In this document: positions 1,957 to 25,628 of the stretch, piece by piece | Layout of the letters: each line of letters begins with the position of its first letter | Position numbering within the stretch: position 1 is the first letter of the stretch | Assembly (NCBI GenBank): GCA_032209605.1 | Contig: JASFXZ010000037.1 | Location: 4,340,001 to 4,404,000, forward strand | Direction: 5' to 3' | Origin: Mactromeris polynyma | Lineage: Eukaryota > Mollusca > Bivalvia > Venerida > Mactridae | DNA length: 64,000 nucleotides | The notes under the pieces: generated by a model | Database searches by the model: none | Told to the model about the DNA's origin: nothing | The model's input: only the letters and a program-made list of their open reading frames with translations | Made by a program: the position numbers and the translations under genes

Positions 1957-2292
1957 ATGTCCTCGCAAAAGCTTGATGACGTCATTGTTGAAATGGCTCA
2001 GCAGACGCTATCTGACGCGGAAAGAAAGTTTCGGAAGTCATGCATCCAGATAACCTTGTTGAATACACAACTGGAGGATATAAAGAAACGCTACCTAAGT
2101 GCGAAAGCAGACGACTTCCACCGCTTCCGGTACAATCTTCGTCTGAAACTTGCTGTGGTCGAGGGAGTAAGAAACATGTACTACGAATACGCTCATATCC
2201 AGGCGGAACACGTGGCCGAAATCAGACTACAGCTGTTTGGAGAAGTTGTGCAGATTGTTGATGATCGCCCGAATGAGGTAGAGGCCGAGTAA
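1957..2292 (+). CDS. Small conserved intronless protein, 111 aa (copy a)
   Basis: I do not recognise this family. The protein starts MSSQKLDDVIVEMAQQ and continues with a charged helical segment (DAERKFRKSCIQITLL, LEDIKKRYLSAK). Its core is FRYNLRLKLAVVEGVRNMYYEYA at about residues 57-79, then QAEHVAEIRLQLFGEV and an acidic tail. It looks all-helical with coiled-coil character, with no signal peptide or membrane segment. The frame is open upstream to an ATG at 1831, but the TATA-like box lies inside that extension and the diverged paralogue at 11796 shares homology only from MSS onward. The stop is followed 28 bases later by a histone-type hairpin. No intron is visible. Cellular role unknown. 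The core shows a faint by-eye resemblance to the N-terminal helix of IER2/IER5-type single-exon genes, which is not enough to name it. Confidence 0.75.
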   Translation: MSSQKLDDVIVEMAQQTLSDAERKFRKSCIQITLLNTQLEDIKKRYLSAKADDFHRFRYNLRLKLAVVEGVRNMYYEYAHIQAEHVAEIRLQLFGEVVQIVDDRPNEVEAE

Positions 2293-2320: not shown

Positions 2321-2380
2321 GGTCCTTGTCAGGGCCAACACATGGTACAATTCTGTACCGCCATTCAACTCGAAAGAATC
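2321..2380 (+). promoter_or_regulatory. Histone-type 3' stem-loop and GAAAGA element (copy a)
   Basis: GGTCCTTGTCAGGGCC at 2321-2336 forms a six-pair stem (one G-U pair) with a four-base TGTC loop, followed by AACACA. This matches the layout of the metazoan replication-dependent histone mRNA 3' hairpin (six-pair GC-rich stem, pyrimidines 5', four-base loop with U at positions 1 and 3, then an ACA-type flank). cgaaagaatc at 2371-2380 resembles a histone downstream element for U7 snRNA, although 34 bases is further away than usual. Confidence 0.65.
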
Positions 2381-2640
2381 TTTTTTATGGTTGTCATATT
2401 AACGGGAAAATCCGTCAAGTCCTTTGATTGCACGTTTACATGCATGCACAGTCAATTATTCACTTACACGTCAACAATTTATTATTGTAATGCCTGTTGA
2501 AATTACTTGATTACTTATTGTGAATTTGCTGATGATCATTGTTTAAATGTATCTAGACATCGGCCGATATTATGTTGTCTTAATGTATGTATTGACTCGA
2601 TGAATGATAGAGATAATTGTGTATCTAGCAATGTGATTAA

Positions 2641-2992: not shown

Positions 2993-3218
2993 TCATAATT
3001 TTATTTGGGATTTGAGCAAAGCTCCTCATCCATACAACATATGTACAACATTTTGTCAAAGTACAAACAAAATAGCAAATTAGTAAAGTAAAATAAAGAG
3101 AAAAATAAACCACACGATAGAAAAAACAAACAACAAATACACATATGAAAACATCCAAATGATTCACAACAATATGAGTGTGTGAGAGAGTGAAAGAATA
3201 AATTTACATTTCAAATAA
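2993..3218 (-). mobile_element. 3' end of a second LINE family, reverse orientation
   Basis: The reverse complement matches the 3' region of the LINE fragment at about 48600-48780. Shared stretches include ttgctattttgtttgtactttgac, ggatgaggagc-ttgctcaaatcc and ttgttgtgaatcatt. It ends in an A-rich stretch and splits the linker region of the host LINE between GRPRG and the VVHRRCVEN segment. Confidence 0.65.
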
Positions 3219-4102
3219 AAAAAAATAGTATAAAGGTGATAAGGCTGAGTTTAGAGTTGTTCATAGACGTTGTGTAGAAAATTATTTAACAAGGTTGGAC
3301 GGGGAGTTGGAAGACGCTGCTTATAACGATCGTGCCAAATTCTGGAAGCAACTTAAGTCTCGTAAAAGTAAATGTTAAAGTGCTATGGGTGCTGGAATAA
3401 ACTTTGATGGAACGGTTTATAGAAGTAGGTCCGAAGACTTGACGGAGCAATGGGCGAAGTATTTTCAAGACTTATATAATTGCTCAGTCAATACGAACTT
3501 TGATAATAAATTTGCGCAGCATGTAAAGTCAGTTGTTACGGAATCATTTGATCAGATTAGCTTAGGTACTGATGTGACTGTGCTACCGGACTTTGTTGGA
3601 CGTTCTATTCGTACTTTAGCTGGGGGCATGGCCAGTGGTGTCGATGGGGTTTGTCATGAACACTTAATTTTTGCATCGCCTGTTATATCGCCAATATTAG
3701 CCAATTTGTTCACGAGCATGTTGCGACGCGGACATATTCCTGTGGATATGAAAAGAGGTGAACTCATTACTCTACATAAGGGCGGGAAGAAGATGAAGGA
3801 TAATCCTAATAACTACAGGGCGATAACTTTATCGTCTGTCATTCTCAAACTATATGAAACTGTTTTACCAGCACACCGTTTACATATAGAAGAAGGTCGT
3901 TACAGAAATGTGCCATGAATGCTGTAGAAACAGAATTTCATTTTTTACTTGTCTGTCCACGATATAGAGACATGAGAAAACAATTCTAACTGTTACTGTC
4001 ATTGGCATACTCCCCATAAACTTAAACAGCTGTAATAGAGCTAAAATACTGTAATTTGAAGAACACTAGCATCTTTTATTTTTCATGCTAACTTATTGAG
4101 AG

Positions 4103-4581
4103 GACAAGAGTGGCACACTGTCACAAAATACGCCCGTCATAAGTCAGAGCTCAGTCTGAGTTAAAACAAGACAAATTTTATGTAATTTCTAAAATCAAAG
4201 GGTGCTAACTCCTGAGTGATTTTAGCGATATGGCTAGTTATCGAACTTGGTCGAGATATTATGCCCATAAGCATTTTCACTAAGTTTGGTAAAGATCGGA
4301 TGAAAACTCTTTGACTTAGAGGGCGGACAAGGCTAATTTTGTCAATTTTGGATAATTCAAGGGCCATAATTCCGAAGTGCCTCCGTCGATGTGGCTGGTT
4401 ATCGAACTTGGCCGAGATATCATGCCCACAAGCATCTTCACCAAGTATGGTAAAGATCGGAGGAAAACTCTTTGACGTAGAGAGCGTACAACATGTGGAC
4501 ACCGCTCGCCCGCCCGCCCGCCCGCCCGCCCGCCCGCCGTGGGTGTTCCCATAATACGATCCGTTCTTCGAACGGGCGTAT
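4103..4581. mobile_element. 479-base inserted element with internal 155-base repeats and (CGCC)n
   Basis: The uninterrupted sequence (about 1392: gagagaataatttaatc) is split here, so 4103-4581 is an insertion. tacgcccgt lies near the left end and gaacgggcgta at the right end as a short inverted terminal match. Internally, two related segments repeat phrases such as ttatcgaacttgg-cgagatat and ggtaaagatcgga-gaaaactctttga. A cgcc run lies at 4507-4538. The overlapping ORFs on both strands are repeat artefacts. Confidence 0.65.
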
Positions 4582-4855
4582 AATAATTTAATCATCAACC
4601 AATTTATTATGTTCGTTAGCCTTATGTTACAACCTCACTGAATGCACGCATTTCCAATATAATTTATGTCAACTATAGTCTTTATCTGTCAATGATTCAT
4701 ACTATATTTATACACACTTTTCTCGTATATAATGTTTGTTTATGTAATTGTGTTCACCTTTCCCATTGTATATACATGTATGCTGTAATCACAATGAACT
4801 TGTGAGTTTTTGTCAATAAACTTTGAAATTGAAAATAAAAGTAAATCGGCTTAAA

Positions 4856-5134
4856 GTGCAAAATAATTTGAGCCGTTGAAATTGGCAATTACTCTTTAAT
4901 TACTCTTTGGTATCAATAAAATGACAAAACCATTGAAGCAATAAGAGACTAATCATCAAGTGCGAAAAACGCGCAAACAAATCAGATGTCAGTTGTCAAC
5001 ATTAATTTATGGACAAGTGGCATACACCTGACATGGTCGGGAATAAATACGGGGATTTTCTTGACGGAATACCAAACTTGCATTTGCATTTCATCTGCAA
5101 CTATCAATCGTACTCAATATTTACATTTCTAAAA
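4856..5134 (+). promoter_or_regulatory. Promoter and 5' leader of small gene copy b
   Basis: Same cassette as at 1675, with an extra attactcttta repeat. The TATA-like aataaata is at 5042-5049, the inverted CCAAT box is within gaaattggcaa near 4876-4886, and the start codon used is at 5135. Confidence 0.5.
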
Positions 5135-5470
5135 ATGTCCTCGCAAAAGCTTGATGACGTCATTGTTGAAATGGCTCAGCAGACGCTATCTGACGCGGAA
5201 AGAAAGTTTCGGAAGTCATGCATCCAGATAACCTTGTTGAATACACAACTGGAGGATATAAAGAAACGCTACCTAAGTGCGAAAGCAGACGACTTTCACC
5301 GCTTCCGGTACAATCTTCGTCTGAAACTTGCTGTGGTCGAGGGAGTAAGAAACATGTACTACGAATACGCTCATATCCAGGCGGAACACGTGGCCGAAAT
5401 CAGACTACAGCTGTTTGGAGAAGTTGTGCAGATTGTTGATGATCGCCCGGATGAGGTAGAGGCCGAGTAA
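5135..5470 (+). CDS. Small conserved intronless protein, 111 aa (copy b)
   Basis: Near-identical to copy a. The tail reads DDRPDEVEAE instead of DDRPNEVEAE, the only residue change I noticed in the 111-residue form. Copies a and b, with their upstream LINE 3' ends, form an internal direct repeat with an offset of about 3,178 bases, so the gene was duplicated together with flanking LINE sequence. Family and function are not recognised. Confidence 0.75.
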   Translation: MSSQKLDDVIVEMAQQTLSDAERKFRKSCIQITLLNTQLEDIKKRYLSAKADDFHRFRYNLRLKLAVVEGVRNMYYEYAHIQAEHVAEIRLQLFGEVVQIVDDRPDEVEAE

Positions 5471-5498
5471 AACGTCACCTCAATTTCCGGTTTTAAAC

Positions 5499-5558
5499 GG
5501 TCCTTGTCAGGGCCAACACATGGTACAATTATGTACCGCCATTCAACTCGAAAGAATC
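5499..5558 (+). promoter_or_regulatory. Histone-type 3' stem-loop and GAAAGA element (copy b)
   Basis: GGTCCTTGTCAGGGCC at 5499-5514 begins 28 bases after the stop, with flank AACACA. cgaaagaatc is at 5549-5558. Same layout as copy a. Confidence 0.65.
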
Positions 5559-5698
5559 TTTTTTTATGGTTGTCATAATTACGGGAAAATCCGTCAAGTC
5601 ATTTGATTGCACGTTTACATGCATGCACAGTCAATTATTCATGGTACCAGCAGGAAAAAACTCATAGTTTGTTTCACGGTGGGGATACAGAAGTCCGT

Positions 5699-6134
5699 TG
5701 TTACACCCCGTTTTGTAATACATGTACCAATTTTCTGGACTCAACCCGTTTTGTAATACATGTACCAATTTTCTGGACTCAACCCGTTTTGTAATCAAAT
5801 ATCAAAATGCACAGACTATGGGTAATTTCAAAATTGTATTACAAGAAACCTGTGAACAAATGTAAAATCAGCCTTGCTTTACATTTGTACATTGGTTCCG
5901 TGTAATTTATTGTTGAAATTAAACATTTTATCAATTTTATTACAAAACCGGTTGAGTCTCAAATATGGTATTACAAAACGGGTTGTTTAAAATCATGGTC
6001 TTATTGCAAGAATTTCCTATAGCCTTGTGAAATAAGACTCATACCTTATTTGTAGACTGGTTTCCAGTTATTTCTTGATGAAATAATAATTTTCTGTCAA
6101 CTTTGCAATTTTTATTACAAAACGGGTTGTAACA
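5699..6134. mobile_element. 436-base MITE-like element with 21-base terminal inverted repeats
   Basis: The left end is tgttacaccccgttttgtaat (5699-5719) and the right end attacaaaacgggttgtaaca (6114-6134), an inverted repeat with one mismatch. Further internal cccgttttgtaat and attacaaaacgggttg motifs occur near both ends. The inverted sister cassette (8690-8760) lacks it: gatacag joins directly to taatgtatttg. Flanking gtcc on both sides may be part of the element. No coding capacity. Confidence 0.7.
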
Positions 6135-6139
6135 GTCCA

Positions 6140-8720
6140 TTATTTTTTGTTAGTGTATTTGTTTCTGTCATATCTTTCACGCAAAGTTTCGCGGAATAAT
6201 TCCCGAATGCTGGGTAAACTGTTAAAAGCCAGCAACTTAGTAAATATATAATTTCTTATTGCGTGGACAATTTTATACCAGTATTTCAATATTCTGTTTT
6301 TCTTATAATAGAAAGTGGATATCTAGCAAATTCGCCATAAACAAAAGAATTACTAGTTTGTTGGCGTACACCAAGCAGACGTTTCATTTTTTTACATGTA
6401 TACGTTCTATTTCCGGGGCTTTATGAAACCCCCATATTTCACATCCGTAATTCAAAATAGAACTAACCATTGAATCAAAAAGTTTCACTTGTTCGTCAAC
6501 ATTTAAAGATACAATATCAAATAAACTATACAGGGAAAAGAGAGCTCTACTTGCTTGCATGGATAGAGACATTTGGGATTGTGCAAAACAATCATTTGAT
6601 GTCAATGTTACACCTAAGTAAAACGTGATACAGTATTCAGTCTACAATTGTTATATTACAAATTTAGATTATATTATCTATTACCCTTTTTACATACCAT
6701 TACAACAGTTTTATTTATATTCACTTGTATACCCCAAGAGGAACAATAAACATATAAATTGTTTAAAAGCTTTTGTAAACCATCCTCCGAATATGACGTC
6801 AAAACAGCATCATCCGCAAACATAAGCAGAAAAAGTTTGATCTCGTCTATTGTAATAGAATCAATATCATCGGTGAGTAAATGAGTATACATGTCATCAA
6901 TAAAGCAAAGAAACAACACTGGTGAAAACGGATCACCTTGTTTAACACCTCTGTTACTATAAAAAAAGTTAGAGAGTGAACTATTAGTACGGATACAAGA
7001 TTTAATGGTGCTATACATTTGCTGTAATATTTTAACAAGTTTTGAATATGCCTATTCTTAAAAGTTTCTCCCAAATGCCGTTCCTATAAACCATATCAAA
7101 TGCCTTTTGGAAGTCAATAAATGCCAGGTAAAAGTTTCGTTTTTCATCTGATATCACTTTTTGAATTATAAATTTAAAACAAAAATACAATCTACAAAGC
7201 TCTTGTCTTTACGATATCCATACTGGAAATCATTTAAATGATTATTAATTTCTGCCTATTTTCTTAACTGTGTGTCTAAAAGTGTAGAACAAATCTTTGA
7301 AAATATACTAGAAATAGTTATTCCTCTATAATTATTCACATCGTTGAGGTCGCCCTTTTTAGGGACGGGTACTATCACACCTTTTAGCAAACTTTCTGGA
7401 TATATACAATTAGTATACATAAAATTAGAAATATCACAAAGTAAAGGCGATAACACAACATAAAAACATCTCAGGTATATAAGCATATCAGTTCCACCAC
7501 TTTTGCCAGATTTCAAACAAGATATAGCAGACTTTACTTCATCAATACAAATTATACTGTCAAGTATATCAGATTCATTTAATCTAGATTGCGCGTCAGA
7601 CAGCTTATTTTCAATATCATCTCTGGAAAAAAGATATGCCGTCGGAAAATACTGTTTTAAAATGATTATAAAACTCTTCGGTTGAAATTTTAGAGTTTTG
7701 TGGAGATTTACCTTTCAGCCTTTTAATTTCTTTCCAAAACTGTTGTGGTTTGGACGAGGCTAAGTCGTGCAAATATATTTTTTGTTTAGCCTTATACTTT
7801 ATTAGCACGTGATTTTCGTTTTTATACTATTGTAATGTTTACGTTTGGTGACCAATATTTCACGGTTAGCTATAGTTGTTTTTTTAATTGTTAAACTCAC
7901 GACGGGCCTGCTCGCATTTATGTGTAAACCAGGGACTTGTAAATTTACGTATATTGTTAGGTTTATTTGAGCGTTTTCTTTTACCGAAAACCTTAAAAGC
8001 AGATTGATATAAACTATTTGACCACTGATTTAAACCATCGTCAATATTTATGTTTTTAAAGTTATATCGGAGACAATAGATTGGTCTTGATTAAATTTGC
8101 ATCTATTAAAGAAATTTATTACCTGATTCCTTATATAAATACAAATCTGTTATTTGTTGCTGTTTTACATGAAAGCTATCAATTTGTCTTGGATTGAACT
8201 ATTCCCCGGTCAACAGTATGAACTGTTTCCCTCTGGCGCTATGAAGTCATTGGAATTTCCAAATTTTATTTTTAGACGGCATATCATTAACGTTCGGTCG
8301 TTTCCGTATTCGATTCGCGATTTTGATGTCGGGTATGACATTCTGAACTGTTGCCCTCGGCCGGTATTCCCGACACCAAGGGACAACAGTTTTGACTGTT
8401 ACCCAAATAACCATGAAATAACTGTATAATATTCATCGTTTCTTTGAAAATTCCACGTGATTTTTACAAAGAACGTGTCATGATTATCCGACGGGCTAAC
8501 ATTGGCTTTACAATATTTATACTGAGCTGTATTAGAGTATGAGTAGAACATGAATATAAATCATGAACAAAGAAATTGTTTATACAATAAAAAAAATCAC
8601 CTGACATCAGCACATAATCTATGAGACTATTACCATTACCAGATACAAACAGTTTACCCAACATTCTGGAATTATTCCGCAAAACTTTGCGTGAATGATA
8701 TGACAGAAACAAATACATTA
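6140..8720 (-). mobile_element. Degenerate LINE, minus strand: endonuclease to reverse transcriptase
   Basis: Read on the minus strand from 8720: the end of the endonuclease (about 8480-8660, NSLIDYVLMSGDFF, with STH where SDH is expected), the linker (7617-7808, QQFWKEIKRLKGKSPQNS), RT motifs 1-2 (7256-7516, VIVPVPKKGDLNDVNNYRGI), RT core (6674-7018, NRGVKQGDPFSPVLF and the catalytic FADD) and the thumb region (6384-6605, LFDSMVSSILNYGCEIWGF). Several frameshifts and stops make it a pseudogene. About 8150-8450 looks unrelated to the LINE and may be a further insertion. It lies between inverted gene cassettes b and c. Confidence 0.8.
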
Positions 8721-8850
8721 CTGTATCCCCACCGTGAAACAAACTATGAGTTTTCTCTGCTGGTACCATGAATAATTGACTGCGCATGCATGTAAATGTG
8801 CAATCAAATGACTTGTCGGATTTTCCCGTAATTATGACAACCATAAAAAA

Positions 8851-8910
8851 GATTCTTTCGAGTTGAATGGCGGTACAGAATTGTACCATGTGTTGGCCCT
8901 GACAAGGGCC
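8851..8910 (-). promoter_or_regulatory. Histone-type 3' stem-loop and GAAAGA element (copy c)
   Basis: On the minus strand GGCCCTTGTCAGGGCC (8910-8895) has a perfect six-pair stem with loop TGTC and flank AACACA, 28 bases after the stop. cgaaagaatc is at 8860-8851. The stem is fully Watson-Crick here, whereas copies a and b have one G-U pair. Confidence 0.68.
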
Positions 8911-8938
8911 GTTTAAAACCGGGAATTGAGGTGACGTT

Positions 8939-9274
8939 TTACTCGGCCTCTACCTCATCCGGGCGATCATCAACAATCTGCACAACTTCTCCAAACAGCT
9001 GTAGTCTGATTTCGGCCACGTGTTCCGCCTGGATATGAGCGTATTCGTAGTACATGTTTCTTACTCCCTCGACCACAGCAAGTTTCAGACGAAGATTGTA
9101 CCGGAAGCGGTGGAAGTCGTCTGCTTTCGCACTTAGGTAGCGTTTCTTTATATCCTCCAGTTGTGTATTCAACAAGGTTATCTGGATGCATGACTTCCGA
9201 AACTTTCTTTCCGCGTCAGATAGCGTCTGCTGAGCCATTTCAACAATGACGTCATCAAGCTTTTGCGAAGACAT
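8939..9274 (-). CDS. Small conserved intronless protein, 111 aa (copy c, inverted)
   Basis: Same 111-residue product as copy b. The cassette 8724-9568 is the reverse complement of about 4850-5690, including promoter, hairpin and about 180 bases downstream. No LINE tail lies upstream of its promoter, which defines the left limit of the conserved cassette. Start chosen at MSSQ as for copy a. Function not recognised. Confidence 0.75.
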   Translation of the reverse strand: MSSQKLDDVIVEMAQQTLSDAERKFRKSCIQITLLNTQLEDIKKRYLSAKADDFHRFRYNLRLKLAVVEGVRNMYYEYAHIQAEHVAEIRLQLFGEVVQIVDDRPDEVEAE

Positions 9275-9570
9275 TTTTAGAAATGTAAATATTGAGTAAG
9301 ATTGATAGTTGCAGATGAAATGCAAATGCAAGTTTGGTATTCCGTCAAGAAAATCCCCGTATTTATTCCCGACCATGTCAGGTGTATGCCACTTGTCCAT
9401 AAATTAATGTTGACACCTGACATCTGATTTGTTTGCGCGTTTTTCGCACTTGATGATTAGTCTCTTATTGCTTCAATGGTGTTTGTCATTTTATTGATAC
9501 CAAAGAGTAATTAAAGAGTAATTGCCAATTTCAACGGCGAAAGTGATTTTGCACTTTAAGCCGATTTATT
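9275..9570 (-). promoter_or_regulatory. Promoter and 5' leader of small gene copy c
   Basis: On the minus strand this carries the same TATA-like aataaata (9367-9360), the gcgaaaaacgcgc stretch and the inverted CCAAT box. Homology to the other copies stops near 9568. Confidence 0.5.
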
Positions 9571-11690
9571 GGACTTAAATATTTTACCGATACAACAACA
9601 AAACACAAGGCATACATATAATGGTACGCCAATTTGCTACTTGACAAATGGCACTGATACAAAATTAGTATAAGTCTGTTAAACCTTCTGTCTGCCAACT
9701 ATGTTATTTATTATATTTAAATATAAATTAATAAGGCAACTAGAGTACCCCTATTTCTGTTATTTTTAGATACATTTAAATCAAAATGGCACGTGACAAT
9801 TCAGGCCAAGATAGAGTTCAAGGGTCAAAATGTTGCCTTGGTGAATATAAAGATTATATTATCATAACTCCAACGATCAAAAGTGGAACACACTAAAACA
9901 GTTCATATACGGTCACTGTTTTAAACAATTAATAATGACGAATATTGTAGAAAATCTTTTTACATTTAGTGGTATTCTTTTCGGGTACATACTGTGTACT
10001 AATTTTGTTCTCAAGATATCTACTAAAACCGGATCCACCTAGGGGGTACCAGGCTTTCGTTAATGGTCAGTTTTAGGACAGGTTATTCCTAAGCCTTTAA
10101 TTAAATGTTAGACAGATTTCAGGTCCAACCATGATCGCTGGCGTTTGTTTCACTTTGGTGATAGAAGATAAATCTATTTCTTGATGACAGTATATGTGGT
10201 CGACTTAATAAAACAGATACTTCATTTCTTAACATATCAATGGTTTTCTGTAATGATTTTAAATTTGCGCTTTCCATATTTGAAGTCTGGTGCAATATCT
10301 TGTGTGCACTTACACGAATAATTACATGTAATTTCTCAATTTGATGAAAATCCGAACAATTATTGGAACACGCGATAACGTTCATATACGTTCTCTGGTA
10401 ATATGGTACATAGCAAAATATGGTTGTTCCACAAATGTTAGACACGTATCAGTTTTGAATTAATGTACTATACATGTATATCATGATGCTCCCATACCCA
10501 GCTTTCAATGCGTTTTAGCTGTCTTATCGCAGTGGATTGTCCACCTTGAAAGTGACCCGAAAATCGATATCGAGTTTCCAGCTTTACCAGTTTTGATCGA
10601 TAGATTATACAGGGACAATATTTTCAAACGTAGATTTAAACGCTTTATCTTATGACTAGAATAATCTAACTTGTTTCGCATACTAAGTTGACTTACGCTC
10701 TTAATCCACAAGGGTTGCATGTTGCTTTATGTTGATTGTACTTCTGTATGTTTCAATACGGTCCCTATTTCAATACACACGTTAAACATGTTTTACACTC
10801 ATAGCTTACAGAAAATAATCCAATATATTTAGTTTGTTTTGAAAATTAGCCATGTCTCCTTATTTAAGTATTTCATCTTGGACCAATATATACATAGTCC
10901 CAGATTTCTTATTGGAATATATGGTCGTGATTCTGTTTTTGTTGAGAAGTGATCTAATCCCCCTTAGACGTTTAATGAAATATTTGTTGTTCATAATGAC
11001 AATAGTCCTGTCTGATGCATACTCCACAAAAGTCACTATTTTGATGCTTTGCCGAATATATTGTACATTTGATAGATCTACATGTATTATGCGTTATGTC
11101 ACGGACCTATATATATATGGTATATAGGTCCGTGGTTATGTCATATATATGATATATCTACATGTATATTATGCGTAATGTCATATATATCGTATATATG
11201 ATAGATCTACATGTATTATGCGTTATGTCATGTTAGGATTTTTATTTTACTTTACCGCAGAGCAACCTTATTTGTCAAAACGAACTGTACATTACAAGTA
11301 TATTAATATGCCAATAAACTATGCAGGACTTTGTACAATTTATCGATAAATACAACAAAACTTATTATTTCAAACATGTTCAGATTTAAAGTATAAAAAC
11401 ACGTTACGACTATAATGCTTTGGGCAAATTATTGTATAATATCAAGTTACAATCTGTGTACAAATATGCCATTTATTTGTTTGCAATATTTCATCAATTG
11501 AGCAATTAAACCTGATTAGAGCAAATGGTGTTTGGTATCACGTGAGATCAAAGGTCGGCGTCAGTCAACCATTAAACAAACATGTCAATTTTACGATTGA
11601 TAATCAAACAATAAAGTCAAGCAAATATGTGTCGATAATACCAGATGTCATAATTTAGACTAAAATGTAGCAAAATATGTCTTAATTTAT
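9571..11690. other. No recognised gene; two unassigned minus-strand ORFs
   Basis: Minus-strand ORFs at 10119-10445 (108 codons, starting MSNICGTTIFCYVPYY) and 10505-10720 (71 codons) show no motif I recognise and no stem-loop after the stop. They could be decayed transposon pieces or chance. A 35-base palindromic insertion sits at 11100. The rest is AT-rich non-coding sequence with short repeated phrases (atctacatgtattatgcg) around 11080-11220. Confidence 0.4.
11093..11141. mobile_element. 35-base palindromic insertion with 7-base target duplication
   Basis: Element 11100-11134 starts cacggacctata and ends tataggtccgtg, the same termini as the element at 1210 but with a different centre and length. 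It is flanked by gttatgt at 11093-11099 and 11135-11141. Two independent insertions with perfect 7-base duplications support mobility. Confidence 0.8.
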
Positions 11691-11698
11691 CTCCAGAT

Positions 11699-11795
11699 TA
11701 TATAAATACCAGGTAATCAAATCATGCCATTCCATACTTTATGGTATACACATCTCAACCCATTTACTACCTCTCCTTGTAATCATACTGCGAAC
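11699..11795 (+). promoter_or_regulatory. TATA box and leader of the 115-codon paralogue
   Basis: A strong tatataaata box lies at 11699-11708. A start site about 30 bases downstream would fall near 11730, after the in-frame ATG at 11724. This, and the lack of homology between the leader peptide and the other family members, supports initiation at 11796. Confidence 0.55.
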
Positions 11796-12143
11796 ATGTC
11801 GTCTGAGGGAAAGATCTCGAAGCAACATTGCGACCTTGGATTGCTGCGAGAAGCCGAAAGAAAGTTCAAGAAATCGTGTGCTCAAATATGTTTTTTGAAC
11901 AAACTGTTAGAAGATACGCAAGCACGTTATGGGAAGGCAAAGAGAGAAAACTTCAAGTGTTTCCGTTATAACCTAAGATTGAAGTTAGCCGTCGTGGAGG
12001 GCACACGAAACATGTACTACGAGTATGCTTACAAGCAAGCAGAGATTGTTGCCGACTTACGTCTCAAGCTATATGGACAGGAAGTGGAGATTGTTACGTC
12101 AGAGGAAGAGAGCGATGCGGAAACAGACGAATATCCTGTTTGA
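11796..12143 (+). CDS. Small conserved intronless protein, 115 aa (diverged paralogue)
   Basis: Diverged member of the same family as the 111-residue genes. It starts MSSEGKISKQ, then REAERKFKKSCAQICFLN, the core FRYNLRLKLAVVEGTRNMYYEYA, then QAEIVADLRLKLYGQEVEIV and an acidic tail EEESDAETDEYPV. In the 23-codon core only one residue differs from the other genes (T for V), while I count about 15 synonymous codon differences, which is direct evidence of protein-level selection. It is intronless, TATA-driven and followed 75 bases after the stop by a histone-type hairpin with a canonical TTTC loop. Function not recognised. It is predicted helical and acidic at the C-terminus, with no signal peptide. 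Confidence 0.8.
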   Translation: MSSEGKISKQHCDLGLLREAERKFKKSCAQICFLNKLLEDTQARYGKAKRENFKCFRYNLRLKLAVVEGTRNMYYEYAYKQAEIVADLRLKLYGQEVEIVTSEEESDAETDEYPV

Positions 12144-12217
12144 GACGTCACAAAATGTCGATGCGTTTTACCAAAGACCTAAGTACCAGTATTTTGGTAT
12201 TTGGTTTTACAGAAAAC

Positions 12218-12280
12218 AGCCCTTTTCAGGGCTAAATAATGTCCGTTTTTTTAATGGGACTGAAATAAATCAGAAAGAAG
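12218..12280 (+). promoter_or_regulatory. Histone-type 3' stem-loop and GAAAGA element (paralogue)
   Basis: AGCCCTTTTCAGGGCT at 12218-12233 has a perfect six-pair stem and a TTTC loop, the classical histone loop sequence, with flank AAATAA. cagaaagaag lies at 12271-12280, 38 bases beyond the hairpin. The surrounding sequence is unrelated to the flanks of the 111-codon genes, so the hairpin is conserved while its context is not. Confidence 0.68.
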
Positions 12281-12494
12281 TACACTAATATGATTGTCAC
12301 CAGAATGATCAGGGTATCTCACGTAGATGTATATACTTACCCTTCAACTTTCGTGCTTATTGGAAACGTACGATATTCAGCACATATATTTTACATTTCT
12401 CCCTTAGTTAAATAATATCTGTACCATTGACTGTGACACCCTCACTTTGTGTAATGCAATGTATATAATTCGAAACAAGAACTATCTTGAAAAA

Positions 12495-12790
12495 AGATGG
12501 TCGGCTCAACTTTGAAGGTTAAGATTTTTTATGCAACATGAAAAAAGGCGAGATGTTACGATTCATGGTCACTGCAGATCCAAAATGGGTTTCGGTAAAT
12601 TAACCGAAATTCAGAGGATTTCGGTAAGGTAACGTTCCCTTATCGAAAGGTTAACCAGTCCGCGTTAAGGTTACACACGTTGTTCGATTGAAGTGAAATT
12701 GCCTTGGTGGTTAACGTAAGCTTTGTTTGGTTTACACAACACTGATATGCAAATAGCAAAACCGAGTTAGTACGGCTGCGGCGAAAAATG
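12495..12790. repeat. Interspersed repeat (about 300 bases)
   Basis: Matches about 59447-59735 and, in part, about 31722-31870. Shared phrases include gaaggttaagatttt, gatgttac-att, ggatttcggtaa and tttacacaacactgatatgc. The class is unknown. No coding capacity. Confidence 0.6.
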
Positions 12791-13448
12791 CTGAAGTAGA
12801 GCTATTTCATTACAGATCGAGCGTCTTGGGACTCCTCCAATGGTGTCATAGACATAGCCTCATCTACATCAGTCAAATCTTTGTTTTCACTCTTCACAGT
12901 GAGACTAAAATGGTCACTCTTCAATGTGGAGGAAGCCTATGAGATACAGTTGAAATATTACAAAGTAAAGTTTCACCAACTCTTGATTAAGGGAAACAAA
13001 ATATTATACGAGTACGTAATGCATCATCCATGAAAAAAACCCTATTCAGTTGTATTATCTACACCCTTCCCCACCATTGCCTGCTATTTCTGAACACAGA
13101 CAAAATCAGGACTTATAGCAGCAGGTAATGCTCTGATCCCCTACAATCTCCTTGGAGAATATTGCAGCTGTCAATGATTCATTGCCGATGATGTGAAGGA
13201 TCAATATACATGTGTAAGTATCCGATATTTTATACATAAAAACATCCCACTGAAAAACCAAACCAAAAGTCCTAAGTTCCAATGCTGTAAGAAATCTCAC
13301 ATAATGGCATTCTCATACATAAGAAGTCCGAGAGAATTCCTCACAGAAGTTGAATAGTTAGAGAAGGAAAACGAATCAGTTAGAACTCTGGTGCTAGGTC
13401 TGTGTGAATGACAACCTAAAATCCACATTTGAATGAAGACAGATATAA
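12791..13448. other. No gene seen
   Basis: The minus-strand ORF at 13106-13300 has no recognisable motif. Ordinary AT-rich spacer before the minisatellite. Confidence 0.4.
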
Positions 13449-13944
13449 GAACATAAGGTCTAACTAGAACATAAGGTCTAACTAGGACATAAGGTCTAAC
13501 TAGAACTTAAGGTCTAACTAGAACATAAGGTCTAACTAGAACATAAGGTCTAACTAGAACATAAGGTCTAACTAGAACATAAGGTCTAACTAGGACATAA
13601 GGTCTAACTAGAACTTAAGGTCTAACTAGAACATAAGGTCTAACTAGAACATAAGGTCTAACTAGAACATAAGGTCTAACTAGAACATAAGGTCTAACTA
13701 GAACATAAGGTCTAACTAGAACATAAGGTCTAACTAGGACATAAGGTCTAACTAGGACATAAGGTCTAACTAGAACATAAGGTCTAACTAGAACATAAGG
13801 TCTAACTAGAACTTAAGGTCTAACTAGAACATAAGGTCTAACTAGAACATAAGGTCTAACTAGAACATAAGGTCTAACTAGAACATAAGGTCTAACTAGA
13901 ACATAAGGTCTAACTAGAACATAAGGTCTAACTAGAACATAAGG
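13449..13944. repeat. 18-base minisatellite, about 27 copies
   Basis: The unit is aacataaggtctaactag, with scattered gacata and aactta variants. The same order of variants is seen in the second copy at 26934. Confidence 0.95.
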
Positions 13945-14428
13945 ACACTATGTACAGTCAGTATCAAATATTTATTCAAATTCAACACATTAACAGCACA
14001 GTTAGGTAAACATATACTTCATAATAGCTAACAATTGGTAATAAACAAGTTTCTACACAATGTACACACACTTTCAAATCATTATTATCTCCCTTTTTAG
14101 GTCAGTCAGTACCACAAAGGCAAACTGAGTTTACAAAAAAACACCAATAAAAACATGAATAACTACACAATTGCTTGTTTTGTCCATAGTTTAAATGTGA
14201 TAAATGAATTAGATTACAACCTAAAAAGCCATGCATAGTTCTCACATCTACAATATTTACCTCCCTTGTTCTGAATTGATAGGCAAATTTCCTTGAAGTT
14301 TATGGGGAATATAATGTAATCGATGATAAACTAATCTGATATATAAAAATAACTCATTCATTATGTAGGCATTCAGCTCAGTAAGTTGAAGAAAAAGTGG
14401 TTGTCACATGCAAATTCTCTTGGTATTT
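13945..14428. other. Spacer at the end of the duplicated unit; no gene seen
   Basis: Contains the left arm (about 14233-14285) of an inverted repeat whose right arm exists only after copy 2, at about 27969-28037. The duplication junction follows directly. Confidence 0.5.
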
Positions 14429-15149
14429 TCTAGAAATATAACGTGTTATTAGATGTTTATATGATAATTTTTTACAACAATGGTTCTCTGATGTTACCTA
14501 CAAAACTTTTAAACATGATTTTTTGAAGAAATTATACTTAACTTGCCATGATTGGAAATGATAAACACAGATTAGCTTTAGCCAAATTTAGATGTTCAGC
14601 ACACCGTTTAAATATAGAAGAAGGTCGTTACAGAAATGTGCCATGAATGCTGTAGAAACTGAATTTCATGTTTTACTTGTCTGTCCACGATATCACGGAC
14701 CTATATACATACATATACATATAGGTCCGTGACGATATAGAGACCTGAAAATACAATTCTAACTGTTACTGTCATTGGCCTACTCCCCATAAACTTAAAC
14801 AGCTGTTATAGAGCTCAAATACTGTAATTTGAGGAACACTAGCATCTTTTATTTTTCATGCTAACTTATTGAGAGAATAATTTAATCATCAACCAATTTA
14901 TTATGTTCGTTAGCCTTATGTTACAACCTCACTGTATGCACGCATTTCCAATATAATTTATGTCAACTATAGTCTTTATCTGTCAATGATTCATACTATA
15001 TTTATACACACTTTTCTCGTATATAATGTTTGTTTATGTAATTGTGTTCACCTTTCCCATTGTATATACATGTATGTTGTTATCACAATGAACTTGTAAG
15101 TTTTTGTCAATGAACTTGTAAGTTTTTGTCAATAAACTTTGAAATTGAA
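14429..15149 (+). mobile_element. LINE C-terminal fragment and 3' tail (copy 2)
   Basis: Duplicate of 945-1665. The part of the LINE upstream of 945 is absent because the duplication starts inside the element. Confidence 0.75.
14687..14738. mobile_element. 38-base palindromic insertion (copy 2)
   Basis: Duplicate of 1203-1254, element 14694-14731, with the same acgatat flanks. Confidence 0.8.
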
Positions 15150-15804: not shown

Positions 15805-15864
15805 GGTCCTTGTCAGGGCCAACACATGGTACAATTCTGTACCGCCATTCAACTCGAAAGAATC
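15805..15864 (+). promoter_or_regulatory. Histone-type 3' stem-loop (copy a, second unit)
   Basis: GGTCCTTGTCAGGGCC at 15805-15820 and cgaaagaatc at 15855-15864. Confidence 0.65.
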
Positions 15865-15973: not shown

Positions 15974-18340
15974 ATGCCTGTTGAAATTACTTGATTACTT
16001 ATTGTGAATTTGCTGATGATCATTGTTTAAATGTATCTAGACATCGGCCGATATTATGTTGTCTTAATGTATGTATTGACTCGATGAATGATAGAGATAA
16101 TTGTGTATCTAGCAATGTGATTAATTTCAAGTTCAAGTTCAAAGTTTTATTGACAAAAATTCACAAAGTTCATTGTCATAACAACATATATACATAATTG
16201 GAAAAGGGCTTGCAGGCACGAGTATGACAATTACTGTACCCGATTACTAAACGATACGAAATAAAGCAATATATGTTGTGCAAATATGGATATTAGTGGC
16301 ATTGATGATGCGTATCGGACTGTAACGGACAGCTTGGTCAGTAATGCTAGAGCGGCGTTTCCCGTTAAGCGGATTAGACCCCATCTTAAGCCGTACTGTT
16401 GTGAAGAGCTTGATAGTCTACACAGTGCGATGAAGAGGTCACGTGAAGTCTGGTGTCGAGCGGGGAGGCCCCGGGGTCATAATTTTATTTGGGATTTGAG
16501 CAAAGCTCCTCATCCATACAACATATGTACAACATTTTGTCAAAGTACAAACAAAATAGCAAATTAGTAAAGTAAAATAAAGAGAAAAATAAACCACACG
16601 ATAGAAAAAACAAACAACAAATACACATATGAAAACATCCAAATGATTCACAACAATATGAGTGTGTGAGAGAGTGAAAGAATAAATTTACATTTCAAAT
16701 AAAAAAAAAATAGTATAAAGGTGATAAGGCTGAGTTTAGAGTTGTTCATAGACGTTGTGTAGAAAATTATTTAACAAGGTTGGACGGGGAGTTGGAAGAC
16801 GCTGCTTATAACGATCGTGCCAAATTCTGGAAGCAACTTAAGTCTCGTAAAAGTAAATGTTAAAGTGCTATGGGTGCTGGAATAAACTTTGATGGAACGG
16901 TTTATAGAAGTAGGTCCGAAGACTTGACGGAGCAATGGGCGAAGTATTTTCAAGACTTATATAATTGCTCAGTCAATACGAACTTTGATAATAAATTTGC
17001 GCAGCATGTAAAGTCAGTTGTTACGGAATCATTTGATCAGATTAGCTTAGGTACTGATGTGACTGTGCTACCGGACTTTGTTGGACGTTCTATTCGTACT
17101 TTAGCTGGGGGCATGGCCAGTGGTGTCGATGGGGTTTGTCATGAACACTTAATTTTTGCATCGCCTGTTATATCGCCAATATTAGCCAATTTGTTCACGA
17201 GCATGTTGCGACGCGGACATATTCCTGTGGATATGAAAAGAGGTGAACTCATTACTCTACATAAGGGCGGGAAGAAGATGAAGGATAATCCTAATAACTA
17301 CAGGGCGATAACTTTATCGTCTGTCATTCTCAAACTATATGAAACTGTTTTACCAGCACACCGTTTACATATAGAAGAAGGTCGTTACAGAAATGTGCCA
17401 TGAATGCTGTAGAAACAGAATTTCATTTTTTACTTGTCTGTCCACGATATAGAGACATGAGAAAACAATTCTAACTGTTACTGTCATTGGCATACTCCCC
17501 ATAAACTTAAACAGCTGTAATAGAGCTAAAATACTGTAATTTGAAGAACACTAGCATCTTTTATTTTTCATGCTAACTTATTGAGAGGACAAGAGTGGCA
17601 CACTGTCACAAAATACGCCCGTCATAAGTCAGAGCTCAGTCTGAGTTAAAACAAGACAAATTTTATGTAATTTCTAAAATCAAAGGGTGCTAACTCCTGA
17701 GTGATTTTAGCGATATGGCTAGTTATCGAACTTGGTCGAGATATTATGCCCATAAGCATTTTCACTAAGTTTGGTAAAGATCGGATGAAAACTCTTTGAC
17801 TTAGAGGGCGGACAAGGCTAATTTTGTCAATTTTGGATAATTCAAGGGCCATAATTCCGAAGTGCCTCCGTCGATGTGGCTGGTTATCGAACTTGGCCGA
17901 GATATCATGCCCACAAGCATCTTCACCAAGTATGGTAAAGATCGGAGGAAAACTCTTTGACGTAGAGAGCGTACAACATGTGGACACCGCTCGCCCGCCC
18001 GCCCGCCCGCCCGCCCGCCCGCCGTGGGTGTTCCCATAATACGATCCGTTCTTCGAACGGGCGTATAATAATTTAATCATCAACCAATTTATTATGTTCG
18101 TTAGCCTTATGTTACAACCTCACTGAATGCACGCATTTCCAATATAATTTATGTCAACTATAGTCTTTATCTGTCAATGATTCATACTATATTTATACAC
18201 ACTTTTCTCGTATATAATGTTTGTTTATGTAATTGTGTTCACCTTTCCCATTGTATATACATGTATGCTGTAATCACAATGAACTTGTGAGTTTTTGTCA
18301 ATAAACTTTGAAATTGAAAATAAAAGTAAATCGGCTTAAA
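15974..18340 (+). mobile_element. Degenerate LINE with nested insertions (copy 2)
   Basis: Duplicate of 2490-4855, with the same three insertions (about 16125-16249, 16477-16703 and 17588-18066). The A-run at 16701-16710 is one base longer than in copy 1. Confidence 0.8.
17588..18066. mobile_element. 479-base inserted element with (CGCC)n (copy 2)
   Basis: Duplicate of 4103-4581. Confidence 0.65.
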
Positions 18341-18619
18341 GTGCAAAATAATTTGAGCCGTTGAAATTGGCAATTACTCTTTAATTACTCTTTGGTATCA
18401 ATAAAATGACAAAACCATTGAAGCAATAAGAGACTAATCATCAAGTGCGAAAAACGCGCAAACAAATCAGATGTCAGTTGTCAACATTAATTTATGGACA
18501 AGTGGCATACACCTGACATGGTCGGGAATAAATACGGGGATTTTCTTGACGGAATACCAAACTTGCATTTGCATTTCATCTGCAACTATCAATCGTACTC
18601 AATATTTACATTTCTAAAA

Positions 18620-18955
18620 ATGTCCTCGCAAAAGCTTGATGACGTCATTGTTGAAATGGCTCAGCAGACGCTATCTGACGCGGAAAGAAAGTTTCGGAAG
18701 TCATGCATCCAGATAACCTTGTTGAATACACAACTGGAGGATATAAAGAAACGCTACCTAAGTGCGAAAGCAGACGACTTTCACCGCTTCCGGTACAATC
18801 TTCGTCTGAAACTTGCTGTGGTCGAGGGAGTAAGAAACATGTACTACGAATACGCTCATATCCAGGCGGAACACGTGGCCGAAATCAGACTACAGCTGTT
18901 TGGAGAAGTTGTGCAGATTGTTGATGATCGCCCGGATGAGGTAGAGGCCGAGTAA
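18620..18955 (+). CDS. Small conserved intronless protein, 111 aa (copy b, second unit)
   Basis: Duplicate of 5135-5470. TATA-like box at 18527-18534. Unknown function. Confidence 0.75.
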   Translation: MSSQKLDDVIVEMAQQTLSDAERKFRKSCIQITLLNTQLEDIKKRYLSAKADDFHRFRYNLRLKLAVVEGVRNMYYEYAHIQAEHVAEIRLQLFGEVVQIVDDRPDEVEAE

Positions 18956-18983
18956 AACGTCACCTCAATTTCCGGTTTTAAAC

Positions 18984-19043
18984 GGTCCTTGTCAGGGCCA
19001 ACACATGGTACAATTATGTACCGCCATTCAACTCGAAAGAATC
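18984..19043 (+). promoter_or_regulatory. Histone-type 3' stem-loop (copy b, second unit)
   Basis: GGTCCTTGTCAGGGCC at 18984-18999, with the GAAAGA motif at 19034-19043. Confidence 0.65.
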
Positions 19044-19183
19044 TTTTTTTATGGTTGTCATAATTACGGGAAAATCCGTCAAGTCATTTGATTGCACGTT
19101 TACATGCATGCACAGTCAATTATTCATGGTACCAGCAGGAAAAAACTCATAGTTTGTTTCACGGTGGGGATACAGAAGTCCGT

Positions 19184-19619
19184 TGTTACACCCCGTTTTG
19201 TAATACATGTACCAATTTTCTGGACTCAACCCGTTTTGTAATACATGTACCAATTTTCTGGACTCAACCCGTTTTGTAATCAAATATCAAAATGCACAGA
19301 CTATGGGTAATTTCAAAATTGTATTACAAGAAACCTGTGAACAAATGTAAAATCAGCCTTGCTTTACATTTGTACATTGGTTCCGTGTAATTTATTGTTG
19401 AAATTAAACATTTTATCAATTTTATTACAAAACCGGTTGAGTCTCAAATATGGTATTACAAAACGGGTTGTTTAAAATCATGGTCTTATTGCAAGAATTT
19501 CCTATAGCCTTGTGAAATAAGACTCATACCTTATTTGTAGACTGGTTTCCAGTTATTTCTTGATGAAATAATAATTTTCTGTCAACTTTGCAATTTTTAT
19601 TACAAAACGGGTTGTAACA
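19184..19619. mobile_element. 436-base MITE-like element (copy 2)
   Basis: Duplicate of 5699-6134 with the same terminal inverted repeats. Confidence 0.7.
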
Positions 19620-19624
19620 GTCCA

Positions 19625-22205
19625 TTATTTTTTGTTAGTGTATTTGTTTCTGTCATATCTTTCACGCAAAGTTTCGCGGAATAATTCCCGAATGCTGGGT
19701 AAACTGTTAAAAGCCAGCAACTTAGTAAATATATAATTTCTTATTGCGTGGACAATTTTATACCAGTATTTCAATATTCTGTTTTTCTTATAATAGAAAG
19801 TGGATATCTAGCAAATTCGCCATAAACAAAAGAATTACTAGTTTGTTGGCGTACACCAAGCAGACGTTTCATTTTTTTACATGTATACGTTCTATTTCCG
19901 GGGCTTTATGAAACCCCCATATTTCACATCCGTAATTCAAAATAGAACTAACCATTGAATCAAAAAGTTTCACTTGTTCGTCAACATTTAAAGATACAAT
20001 ATCAAATAAACTATACAGGGAAAAGAGAGCTCTACTTGCTTGCATGGATAGAGACATTTGGGATTGTGCAAAACAATCATTTGATGTCAATGTTACACCT
20101 AAGTAAAACGTGATACAGTATTCAGTCTACAATTGTTATATTACAAATTTAGATTATATTATCTATTACCCTTTTTACATACCATTACAACAGTTTTATT
20201 TATATTCACTTGTATACCCCAAGAGGAACAATAAACATATAAATTGTTTAAAAGCTTTTGTAAACCATCCTCCGAATATGACGTCAAAACAGCATCATCC
20301 GCAAACATAAGCAGAAAAAGTTTGATCTCGTCTATTGTAATAGAATCAATATCATCGGTGAGTAAATGAGTATACATGTCATCAATAAAGCAAAGAAACA
20401 ACACTGGTGAAAACGGATCACCTTGTTTAACACCTCTGTTACTATAAAAAAAGTTAGAGAGTGAACTATTAGTACGGATACAAGATTTAATGGTGCTATA
20501 CATTTGCTGTAATATTTTAACAAGTTTTGAATATGCCTATTCTTAAAAGTTTCTCCCAAATGCCGTTCCTATAAACCATATCAAATGCCTTTTGGAAGTC
20601 AATAAATGCCAGGTAAAAGTTTCGTTTTTCATCTGATATCACTTTTTGAATTATAAATTTAAAACAAAAATACAATCTACAAAGCTCTTGTCTTTACGAT
20701 ATCCATACTGGAAATCATTTAAATGATTATTAATTTCTGCCTATTTTCTTAACTGTGTGTCTAAAAGTGTAGAACAAATCTTTGAAAATATACTAGAAAT
20801 AGTTATTCCTCTATAATTATTCACATCGTTGAGGTCGCCCTTTTTAGGGACGGGTACTATCACACCTTTTAGCAAACTTTCTGGATATATACAATTAGTA
20901 TACATAAAATTAGAAATATCACAAAGTAAAGGCGATAACACAACATAAAAACATCTCAGGTATATAAGCATATCAGTTCCACCACTTTTGCCAGATTTCA
21001 AACAAGATATAGCAGACTTTACTTCATCAATACAAATTATACTGTCAAGTATATCAGATTCATTTAATCTAGATTGCGCGTCAGACAGCTTATTTTCAAT
21101 ATCATCTCTGGAAAAAAGATATGCCGTCGGAAAATACTGTTTTAAAATGATTATAAAACTCTTCGGTTGAAATTTTAGAGTTTTGTGGAGATTTACCTTT
21201 CAGCCTTTTAATTTCTTTCCAAAACTGTTGTGGTTTGGACGAGGCTAAGTCGTGCAAATATATTTTTTGTTTAGCCTTATACTTTATTAGCACGTGATTT
21301 TCGTTTTTATACTATTGTAATGTTTACGTTTGGTGACCAATATTTCACGGTTAGCTATAGTTGTTTTTTTAATTGTTAAACTCACGACGGGCCTGCTCGC
21401 ATTTATGTGTAAACCAGGGACTTGTAAATTTACGTATATTGTTAGGTTTATTTGAGCGTTTTCTTTTACCGAAAACCTTAAAAGCAGATTGATATAAACT
21501 ATTTGACCACTGATTTAAACCATCGTCAATATTTATGTTTTTAAAGTTATATCGGAGACAATAGATTGGTCTTGATTAAATTTGCATCTATTAAAGAAAT
21601 TTATTACCTGATTCCTTATATAAATACAAATCTGTTATTTGTTGCTGTTTTACATGAAAGCTATCAATTTGTCTTGGATTGAACTATTCCCCGGTCAACA
21701 GTATGAACTGTTTCCCTCTGGCGCTATGAAGTCATTGGAATTTCCAAATTTTATTTTTAGACGGCATATCATTAACGTTCGGTCGTTTCCGTATTCGATT
21801 CGCGATTTTGATGTCGGGTATGACATTCTGAACTGTTGCCCTCGGCCGGTATTCCCGACACCAAGGGACAACAGTTTTGACTGTTACCCAAATAACCATG
21901 AAATAACTGTATAATATTCATCGTTTCTTTGAAAATTCCACGTGATTTTTACAAAGAACGTGTCATGATTATCCGACGGGCTAACATTGGCTTTACAATA
22001 TTTATACTGAGCTGTATTAGAGTATGAGTAGAACATGAATATAAATCATGAACAAAGAAATTGTTTATACAATAAAAAAAATCACCTGACATCAGCACAT
22101 AATCTATGAGACTATTACCATTACCAGATACAAACAGTTTACCCAACATTCTGGAATTATTCCGCAAAACTTTGCGTGAATGATATGACAGAAACAAATA
22201 CATTA
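19625..22205 (-). mobile_element. Degenerate LINE, minus strand (copy 2)
   Basis: Duplicate of 6140-8720. RT core with FADD at 20159-20503. Confidence 0.8.
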
Positions 22206-22335
22206 CTGTATCCCCACCGTGAAACAAACTATGAGTTTTCTCTGCTGGTACCATGAATAATTGACTGCGCATGCATGTAAATGTGCAATCAAATGACTTG
22301 TCGGATTTTCCCGTAATTATGACAACCATAAAAAA

Positions 22336-22395
22336 GATTCTTTCGAGTTGAATGGCGGTACAGAATTGTACCATGTGTTGGCCCTGACAAGGGCC
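22336..22395 (-). promoter_or_regulatory. Histone-type 3' stem-loop (copy c, second unit)
   Basis: GGCCCTTGTCAGGGCC on the minus strand at 22395-22380, with the GAAAGA motif at 22345-22336. Confidence 0.68.
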
Positions 22396-22423
22396 GTTTA
22401 AAACCGGGAATTGAGGTGACGTT

Positions 22424-22759
22424 TTACTCGGCCTCTACCTCATCCGGGCGATCATCAACAATCTGCACAACTTCTCCAAACAGCTGTAGTCTGATTTCGG
22501 CCACGTGTTCCGCCTGGATATGAGCGTATTCGTAGTACATGTTTCTTACTCCCTCGACCACAGCAAGTTTCAGACGAAGATTGTACCGGAAGCGGTGGAA
22601 GTCGTCTGCTTTCGCACTTAGGTAGCGTTTCTTTATATCCTCCAGTTGTGTATTCAACAAGGTTATCTGGATGCATGACTTCCGAAACTTTCTTTCCGCG
22701 TCAGATAGCGTCTGCTGAGCCATTTCAACAATGACGTCATCAAGCTTTTGCGAAGACAT
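22424..22759 (-). CDS. Small conserved intronless protein, 111 aa (copy c, second unit)
   Basis: Duplicate of 8939-9274. Its promoter cassette runs to about 23053. Unknown function. Confidence 0.75.
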   Translation of the reverse strand: MSSQKLDDVIVEMAQQTLSDAERKFRKSCIQITLLNTQLEDIKKRYLSAKADDFHRFRYNLRLKLAVVEGVRNMYYEYAHIQAEHVAEIRLQLFGEVVQIVDDRPDEVEAE

Positions 22760-25280: not shown

Positions 25281-25628
25281 ATGTCGTCTGAGGGAAAGAT
25301 CTCGAAGCAACATTGCGACCTTGGATTGCTGCGAGAAGCCGAAAGAAAGTTCAAGAAATCGTGTGCTCAAATATGTTTTTTGAACAAACTGTTAGAAGAT
25401 ACGCAAGCACGTTATGGGAAGGCAAAGAGAGAAAACTTCAAGTGTTTCCGTTATAACCTAAGATTGAAGTTAGCCGTCGTGGAGGGCACACGAAACATGT
25501 ACTACGAGTATGCTTACAAGCAAGCAGAGATTGTTGCCGACTTACGTCTCAAGCTATATGGACAGGAAGTGGAGATTGTTACGTCAGAGGAAGAGAGCGA
25601 TGCGGAAACAGACGAATATCCTGTTTGA
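25281..25628 (+). CDS. Small conserved intronless protein, 115 aa (paralogue, second unit)
   Basis: Duplicate of 11796-12143 with the same product. Confidence 0.8.
   Translation: MSSEGKISKQHCDLGLLREAERKFKKSCAQICFLNKLLEDTQARYGKAKRENFKCFRYNLRLKLAVVEGTRNMYYEYAYKQAEIVADLRLKLYGQEVEIVTSEEESDAETDEYPV

Follow-up and report, generated by a model that had tools for sequence, protein, structure and literature searches.

Histone-type stem-loops behind intronless genes of a bivalve coiled-coil family point to the histone pathway of mRNA 3′ end formation

Intronless members of a bivalve family of predicted coiled-coil proteins likely form the 3′ ends of their mRNAs by the histone pathway, judging from a histone-type hairpin that lies behind the stop codon in 11 of the 14 locus types examined in Mactromeris polynyma, in most cases accompanied by a purine element spaced as in histone genes and by a TTGTC motif. 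To our knowledge, the textbook rule is that this stem-loop is reserved for histones in animals. The starting point was a 64-kb stretch of DNA (the window; contig C231 of genome G000, positions 4340001-4404000), which a sequence-only reading had described as carrying eight small, intronless non-histone genes with histone-type 3′ hairpins and, by implication, cell-cycle-linked or poly(A)-independent expression. Analysis of the window and of the whole genome (792.8 Mb in 299 contigs) supports that interpretation as far as sequence evidence reaches, and the finding is larger than first described.

All eight open reading frames (ORFs) and all eight hairpins were found at the positions given in that reading. 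The window holds four genes (A1, A2, A3 and B), each with a second copy: positions 3217-14431 are repeated at +13485 (16702-27916) over 11.2 kb with zero mismatches, gene A1 is repeated at +13484, and the unit of about 13.5 kb is present twice. This double may have arisen by duplication very recently, or it may be an artefact of assembly. The window evidence therefore counts as four genes, not eight. The genes and their copies are as follows.

1957..2292, forward strand: gene A1, intronless coding sequence, 111 amino acids
5135..5470, forward strand: gene A2, intronless coding sequence, 111 amino acids
8939..9274, reverse strand: gene A3, intronless coding sequence, 111 amino acids
11796..12143, forward strand: gene B, the gene under study, intronless coding sequence, 115 amino acids
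15441..15776, forward strand: copy of A1, stem-loop at 15805-15820
18620..18955, forward strand: copy of A2, stem-loop at 18984-18999
22424..22759, reverse strand: copy of A3, stem-loop at 22380-22395
25281..25628, forward strand: copy of B, stem-loop at 25703-25718

The length first assigned to these genes, under 120 codons, holds when translation is taken from an internal ATG (111 and 115 codons); the longest ORFs run to 153 and 139 amino acids. The description of the genes as TATA-driven stands for B, which has TATATAA at -97 from the ATG, and is to be corrected for A1, which has ATAAATA only, at -92. Further ORFs at 6674-7018 and 7256-7486 (reverse strand) and 3385-3918 (forward strand), together with their copies, resemble what we take to be reverse transcriptase pieces. 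The tandem repeats at 34721-35407, 60651-61055 and 13455-13850 (the last on the reverse strand) give long repetitive ORFs that are probably spurious, or microRNA-like Rfam noise.

The stem-loops of the four genes are listed below, with scores from the Rfam model RF00032 and E values from R1, a covariance model built from M. polynyma's own H4, H2A, H3 and H2B ends only.

2321..2336, forward strand: stem-loop of A1, GGTCCTTGTCAGGGCC, 28 nt past the stop; R1 E 2.7
5499..5514, forward strand: stem-loop of A2, GGTCCTTGTCAGGGCC; R1 E 0.42
8895..8910, reverse strand: stem-loop of A3, GGCCCTTGTCAGGGCC; RF00032 19.3 bits (cut-off 34), R1 E 0.077
12218..12233, forward strand: stem-loop of B, AGCCCTTTTCAGGGCT, 74 nt past the stop; R1 rank 1 in the window, E 0.004

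When both strands of the window were scanned for 16-mers that form six standard pairs, four or more of them G-C, around a TNTN loop, exactly eight matches were obtained, all in the sense orientation and one behind each ORF, against 0.33 expected by chance (mean of 60 first-order Markov sequences of window composition), under criteria that followed the histone consensus and were set post hoc, after the hairpins had been seen. The scan confirms for all eight the 16-base hairpin with six pairs and with T at loop positions 1 and 3. The ACA-type flank that had been reported for most of them is present in the A genes (AACACA) and missing from B (AAATAA). With R1, the top six matches of the window are those of B, A3, A2 and their copies, and A1 and its copy follow at ranks 11-12, with four other matches ahead. 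In a relaxed scan of the window RF00032 reports A3 and its copy only, and it does not report A1, A2 or B in that scan, or the paralogues C267a and C267b. The check by RF00032 that the sequence-only reading had proposed was thus largely negative for the window copies, and it gave matches, in part below the cut-off, for their paralogues C124, C201, C46 and C289 and for the tandem arrays, which score 29.7-40.1 bits at six loci.

These paralogues come from a protein search of the genome in which the best 150 of 173 candidates were scored (in a later search, the best 150 of 176). Among the best 150 of 173, 100 lie on C269, 34 on C227, eight in the window and eight are dispersed; at least 134 copies therefore form tandem arrays on two contigs (C227 and C269), and the earlier comparison with the tandem clusters of histone genes proves stronger than its author knew. 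The array step is mostly about 1.65 kb, with some steps of about 1.1 to 2.0 kb, the unit that was read contains one ORF of more than 100 amino acids, and a weak family match lies at C227:4962645. The locus types with a hairpin are A, B, the arrays, C289, C46, C201, C124a, C124b, C267a, C267b and C267:6370742, and no hairpin was found in the 3′ sequence read for C232 (about 500 nt past the stop), C20 and C146. C267:6370742, one of two further paralogues (35% identity), has GGCACTTTTCAGCGCC, with an A-C mismatch at pair 4, followed by AGAAAGA and TTGTC. The array hairpin GGCCCTTTTCAGAGCC (L009, 1400-1445, and other copies) has a C-A mismatch at the same pair.

Searching the genome with RF00032 yielded 126,947 first-look candidates, and among the 75 scored matches listed at least 53 pass the cut-off of 34 bits. 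The 75 comprise 47 in histone units (H4, H2A), two displaced histone ends on C190, 21 of the family and five of a GDSL-like family, the classes being assigned by contig, score class and representative loci read. The family's 21 are distributed as 19 on C227, one on C269 and one on C124, and C201 is not among the 75. The top of these matches, at 40.1 bits, lies behind the paralogue C124b. This copy carries a TAG in frame, and when the distance is measured from the later stop, the hairpin is placed as in C201. C201 and C124a (36.3 bits each) also exceed 34 bits, and C46 (31.3), C289 (31.0), the arrays (29.7-32.4), C267:6370742 (20.7) and A3 fall below it. On the species' own histones the model gives 38.6 bits for H4, 37.9 for H2A, 35.5 for H3 and 28.2 for H2B, so that H2B, a true histone, is outscored by several family members and misses the Rfam cut-off. 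An Rfam scan of five array loci at the gathering threshold gave no match. Applied to 21 further loci, R1 finds hairpins at E ≤0.0007 behind the family loci given and none at C267a, C267b, C232 or C20.

The elements downstream of the stem-loops in the window are the following.

2344..2359, forward strand: second hairpin of A1, GGTAC..GTACC, in the spacer that separates stem-loop from purine element; 0.8% of shuffles give an equally good fold
2372..2377, forward strand: GAAAGA of A1, HDE-like purine core
2391..2395, forward strand: TTGTC element of A1, 19 nt after the start of the purine core
5550..5555, forward strand: GAAAGA of A2, HDE-like core
8854..8859, reverse strand: GAAAGA of A3, HDE-like core
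12241..12260, forward strand: possible second hairpin of B, GTCC..GGAC, not significant (an equally good fold in 17% of shuffles)
12273..12278, forward strand: GAAAGA of B, HDE-like core, 39 nt after the stem-loop
12294..12298, forward strand: TTGTC element of B, 21 nt after the start of the purine core

The distance from stop to stem-loop is 28-32 nt in the species' own histones and 25-47 nt in nine of the 11 family genes listed; the other two are B (74 nt) and C124b (86 nt), the latter because of its early stop. From stem-loop to purine core there are 12-14 nt in the histones, 12-15 nt in C289, C46, C201, C124b and the arrays, and, beyond histone spacing, 35 nt in A, 39 nt in B and 32 nt in C267a and C267b, with cores that were chosen by eye and without a chance control (GAAAGA, GAATGA, GAAGGA, GAGAGG in H3 and CAAAGA in the arrays). 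GAAAGA had been placed 34-38 bases past the hairpin; the motif is there in A and B, and the spacing is right for A and too short for B. In A and C267, and possibly in B, a second hairpin lies within the long spacer, leaving unpaired distances of 19 nt in A, 19 nt in B and 14 nt in C267; the share of shuffled spacers with an equally good fold is under 1% for A and C267 and 17% for B. It might be that this predicted second hairpin loops out the extra spacing in these genes. TTGTC follows the start of the purine core by 16-23 nt in 13 of the 15 sequences listed, H4, H2A and H3 included (a count without a chance control), and variants occur in H2B (TTGTT) and C267a (TTGTA). We know of no published role for this element.

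The family thus resembles the histone genes of the same genome (H2A, H2B, H3 and H4) in having multi-copy units, intronless ORFs, a stem-loop, a purine element and a TTGTC-type element. The histone genes have TATATAA upstream in three of four cases, and TTGTC or TTGTT 16-22 nt after the purine start. The two differ in that the family protein is predicted to form two long helices and that its arrays lie on other contigs than the histone units.

Pairing was analyzed in 12 distinct hairpins, typed from the family, the histones and the GDSL-like genes. Cells are paired in 97.2% of cases, and two-sided changes occur at three of the six pairs. The share of paired cells, the number of cells with a two-sided change and the covariation score exceed all 500 shuffles and slid versions; the other two of the five measures do not exceed the shuffles, namely the number of pairs with a two-sided change (93 of 500 as high) and further pair types (284 of 500). 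The first stem pair is G-C, A-U or U-A, and the second is G-C in 12 of 12 hairpins. According to one report, Arg181 of SLBP contacts the G of the second stem pair, and the minimal SLBP site has two A's before the stem and one after it (PMC10388802). The C289 hairpin lacks the A after the stem. Synonymous sites are saturated in six of seven distant paralogue pairs (dS is 1.4 for C289-C46), and the hairpin persists; it has thus outlived the surrounding neutral sequence. In five close pairs, dN/dS is 0 to 0.27, on few changes.

This persistence bears on whether the hairpins are relics, a histone 3′ end having once been captured by duplication and the mRNAs now being polyadenylated downstream, with the hairpin a leftover or a minor route. 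Displaced histone ends do exist in the genome: L079 and L080 (C190, 1501-3046) are histone 3′ ends without a histone ORF, arranged as an H2A-type end, a 183-bp tandem repeat that includes an H4-type end and a 36-bp tandem repeat of TGTCCTTTTAAGGACA plus TTGTCA. Poly(A) signals are likewise found in places; B has AATAAA 120 nt past the stop and 30 nt past the hairpin, AATAAA or ATTAAA occurs within 300 nt of the stop in B, in C289 and also in the species' own H2A, and C267:6370742 has AATAAA beyond its hairpin. Against this, nine of the 11 hairpin genes listed have neither signal within 300 nt of the stop, and the hairpin has been kept, with two-sided changes, between paralogues whose synonymous sites are saturated. 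We therefore consider relic ends unlikely and active use of the histone pathway the better reading.

The family extends to other bivalves. Among the matches listed, all named relatives are bivalves (Mya, Dreissena, Pinctada, Mercenaria, Ruditapes, Mactra, Potamilus, Sinanodonta and Tegillarca), drawn from the best 120 of 247 and the best 120 of 232, in which only some proteins carry names and a wider spread is possible. In some database proteins the translation continues beyond the expected stop and into the 3′ region, either with TGA read as W or through a frame shift, and these read-through tails were back-translated with free codon choice, from protein models only, the DNA of the other species being unread. 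Thirteen of 25 W tails fit the degenerate pattern GGYNYTTYTHARNRCCA at shuffle rates of up to 0.45%, with a pattern set after some tails had been seen and with many related tails. Six of the 13 are near copies of one another; among 12 dissimilar representatives, four fit against 0.03 expected. Under a strict six-pair rule with a flanking A, nine of 31 tails fit (P0012, P0016, P0027, P0028, P0029, P0037, P0113, P0117 and P0060), the rule being otherwise loose, with up to 18 of 200 shuffles fitting (P0060), about 0.8 fits expected in sum, and the P0101 and P0151 tails cut at a late W. Six of seven tails picked by eye also fit, including those of Dreissena polymorpha (P0110) and Pinctada imbricata (P0091), which is not a fair count, and three of the seven (P0101, P0143 and P0151) are also among the 25. 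The GGCACTTTTCAGCGCC hairpin of C267:6370742 is, in DNA, of the kind that the P0150 and P0164 tails allow. The C-A mismatch of the array hairpin is maybe old and kept, because the same sequence is compatible with read-through models such as P0110 (Dreissena) and P0043. Absence of the hairpins from related species, which the sequence-only reading had named as a point against itself, is contradicted by these models, and only indirectly.

AlphaFold2 (75 sequences) predicts two long helices, at 3-51 and 54-93, with a mean pLDDT of 87 and a pTM of 0.71, and the predicted protein is a two-helix hairpin, an antiparallel coiled coil. Structural matches are generic helical hairpins, and no Pfam model scored above cut-off in scans of four, 23 and nine proteins. 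The earlier statement that the proteins have no histone fold agrees with this prediction and with the lack of any histone Pfam model in the same scans (for the 23, among the best 25 of 27 families). The fold is similar to HR1, the Rho-binding antiparallel coiled coil (PF02185), in that an antiparallel helical hairpin is predicted for the family; however, PF02185 matches only weakly in two of 23 members (best E 0.0074, below cut-off) and in none of the nine further scans, and the unrelated models ZapB, DUF7863 and RICH match the family as well or better. Taken together, copy number and 3′ end suggest that the product is made in large amounts and required during S phase, in embryos or in germ cells. 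Our guess is that it serves as an abundant structural component of proliferating or embryonic cells.

Among the three copies without a hairpin (C232, C20 and C146), an intron is established for C232 alone, in which exon 1 ends at a GT donor and exon 2 follows about 1.1 kb on, behind a TTTCAG acceptor. Among relatives of C232, identity to the Mercenaria protein is 94% in Ruditapes, 85% in Mya and 90% in Mactra. The situation is analogous to that of H3 and H3.3, as the family likewise has a multi-copy intronless form with the stem-loop and an intron-containing form without it, although its protein is not a histone. In Hydractinia, according to one study, canonical histones have the stem-loop and several variants lack it, with H2A.X.1 and H3.3.2 having one (PMC5011920).

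The genome encodes SLBP: its RNA-binding domain (PF15247) gives two matches on C168, at 60.1 and 36.4 bits, both over the cut-off. For U7 snRNA, a genome search with RF00066 returned six matches, none over the cut-off, and a pattern search returned 21 matches, four of which were read and showed no clear U7 3′ hairpin. From the sequence, we infer the use of SLBP and U7, the lack of poly(A) and S-phase timing. In the proposed mechanism, SLBP would bind the stem-loop behind the stop codon and the U7 snRNP would pair with the downstream purine element; cleavage would occur between the two, and the mRNA would end in the stem-loop without poly(A). Expression would then track the histone programme, in S phase, the early embryo or the germ line, the large tandem arrays would provide high output, and the intron-containing single copy without a stem-loop would be the constitutive form, as H3.3 is beside H3. 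On this reading, expression of this non-histone family is probably S-phase-linked.

The same hairpin could instead be bound by SLBP or an oocyte relative for the storage and translation of maternal mRNA, with no S-phase coupling. High gene copy number would suit egg provisioning, and SLBP-independent control of maternal histone mRNA is the stated subject of a 2026 preprint (PMC12803260). The purine element, spaced as in histone genes, is an argument for U7 cleavage too, and the two readings are compatible; as a replacement for S-phase coupling, we regard maternal storage as decidedly unlikely. That the arrays are satellite-like repeats with a captured gene, their copy number reflecting repeat expansion and not demand for the protein, is highly unlikely, since the near-identical units, an array reaching to about 1 kb from a contig end and the shifted N-terminal frame of a few array copies (L012, L016) are set against the absence of internal stops from 148 of the 150 scored family matches, dN/dS of 0.17-0.26 in three close pairs of dispersed copies (with few changes) and clusters of many members on one contig, which suggest arrays in other bivalves.

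If the histone pathway is indeed used, a broader picture can be drawn, which we put forward tentatively and hold to be rather doubtful: bivalves would use the production route of histones for a second protein, an abundant, replication-coupled coiled coil with arrayed replication-dependent and intron-containing replication-independent forms. This protein would be present in proportion to DNA and act in chromatin or in embryonic cells that divide rapidly, and the GDSL-like family would have taken over the same end. Should RNA data confirm the 3′ ends, a large non-histone family with a histone-type end would break the histone-only rule. Its members would then offer natural experiments on the requirements of SLBP and U7, and such bivalve genes would be under-represented in libraries made by poly(A) selection. 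The family allows a direct test of whether a new protein that takes on the 3′ end takes on S-phase coupling with it.

The GDSL/SGNH-like family (Pfam E 0.00015, below cut-off) is a second non-histone group with such ends, and it has 71 matches in the genome, several of them on C226. The loci read in G000 are L101 (C251), L102 (C225), L103 (C242), L099 (C223) and L100 (C256). L101, L102 and L103 have two histone-type stem-loops, AGAAAGAAT, and ATTGTC directly behind the stop; L100 is an end without a recognisable coding part, and L099 carries a row of about a dozen stem-loops.
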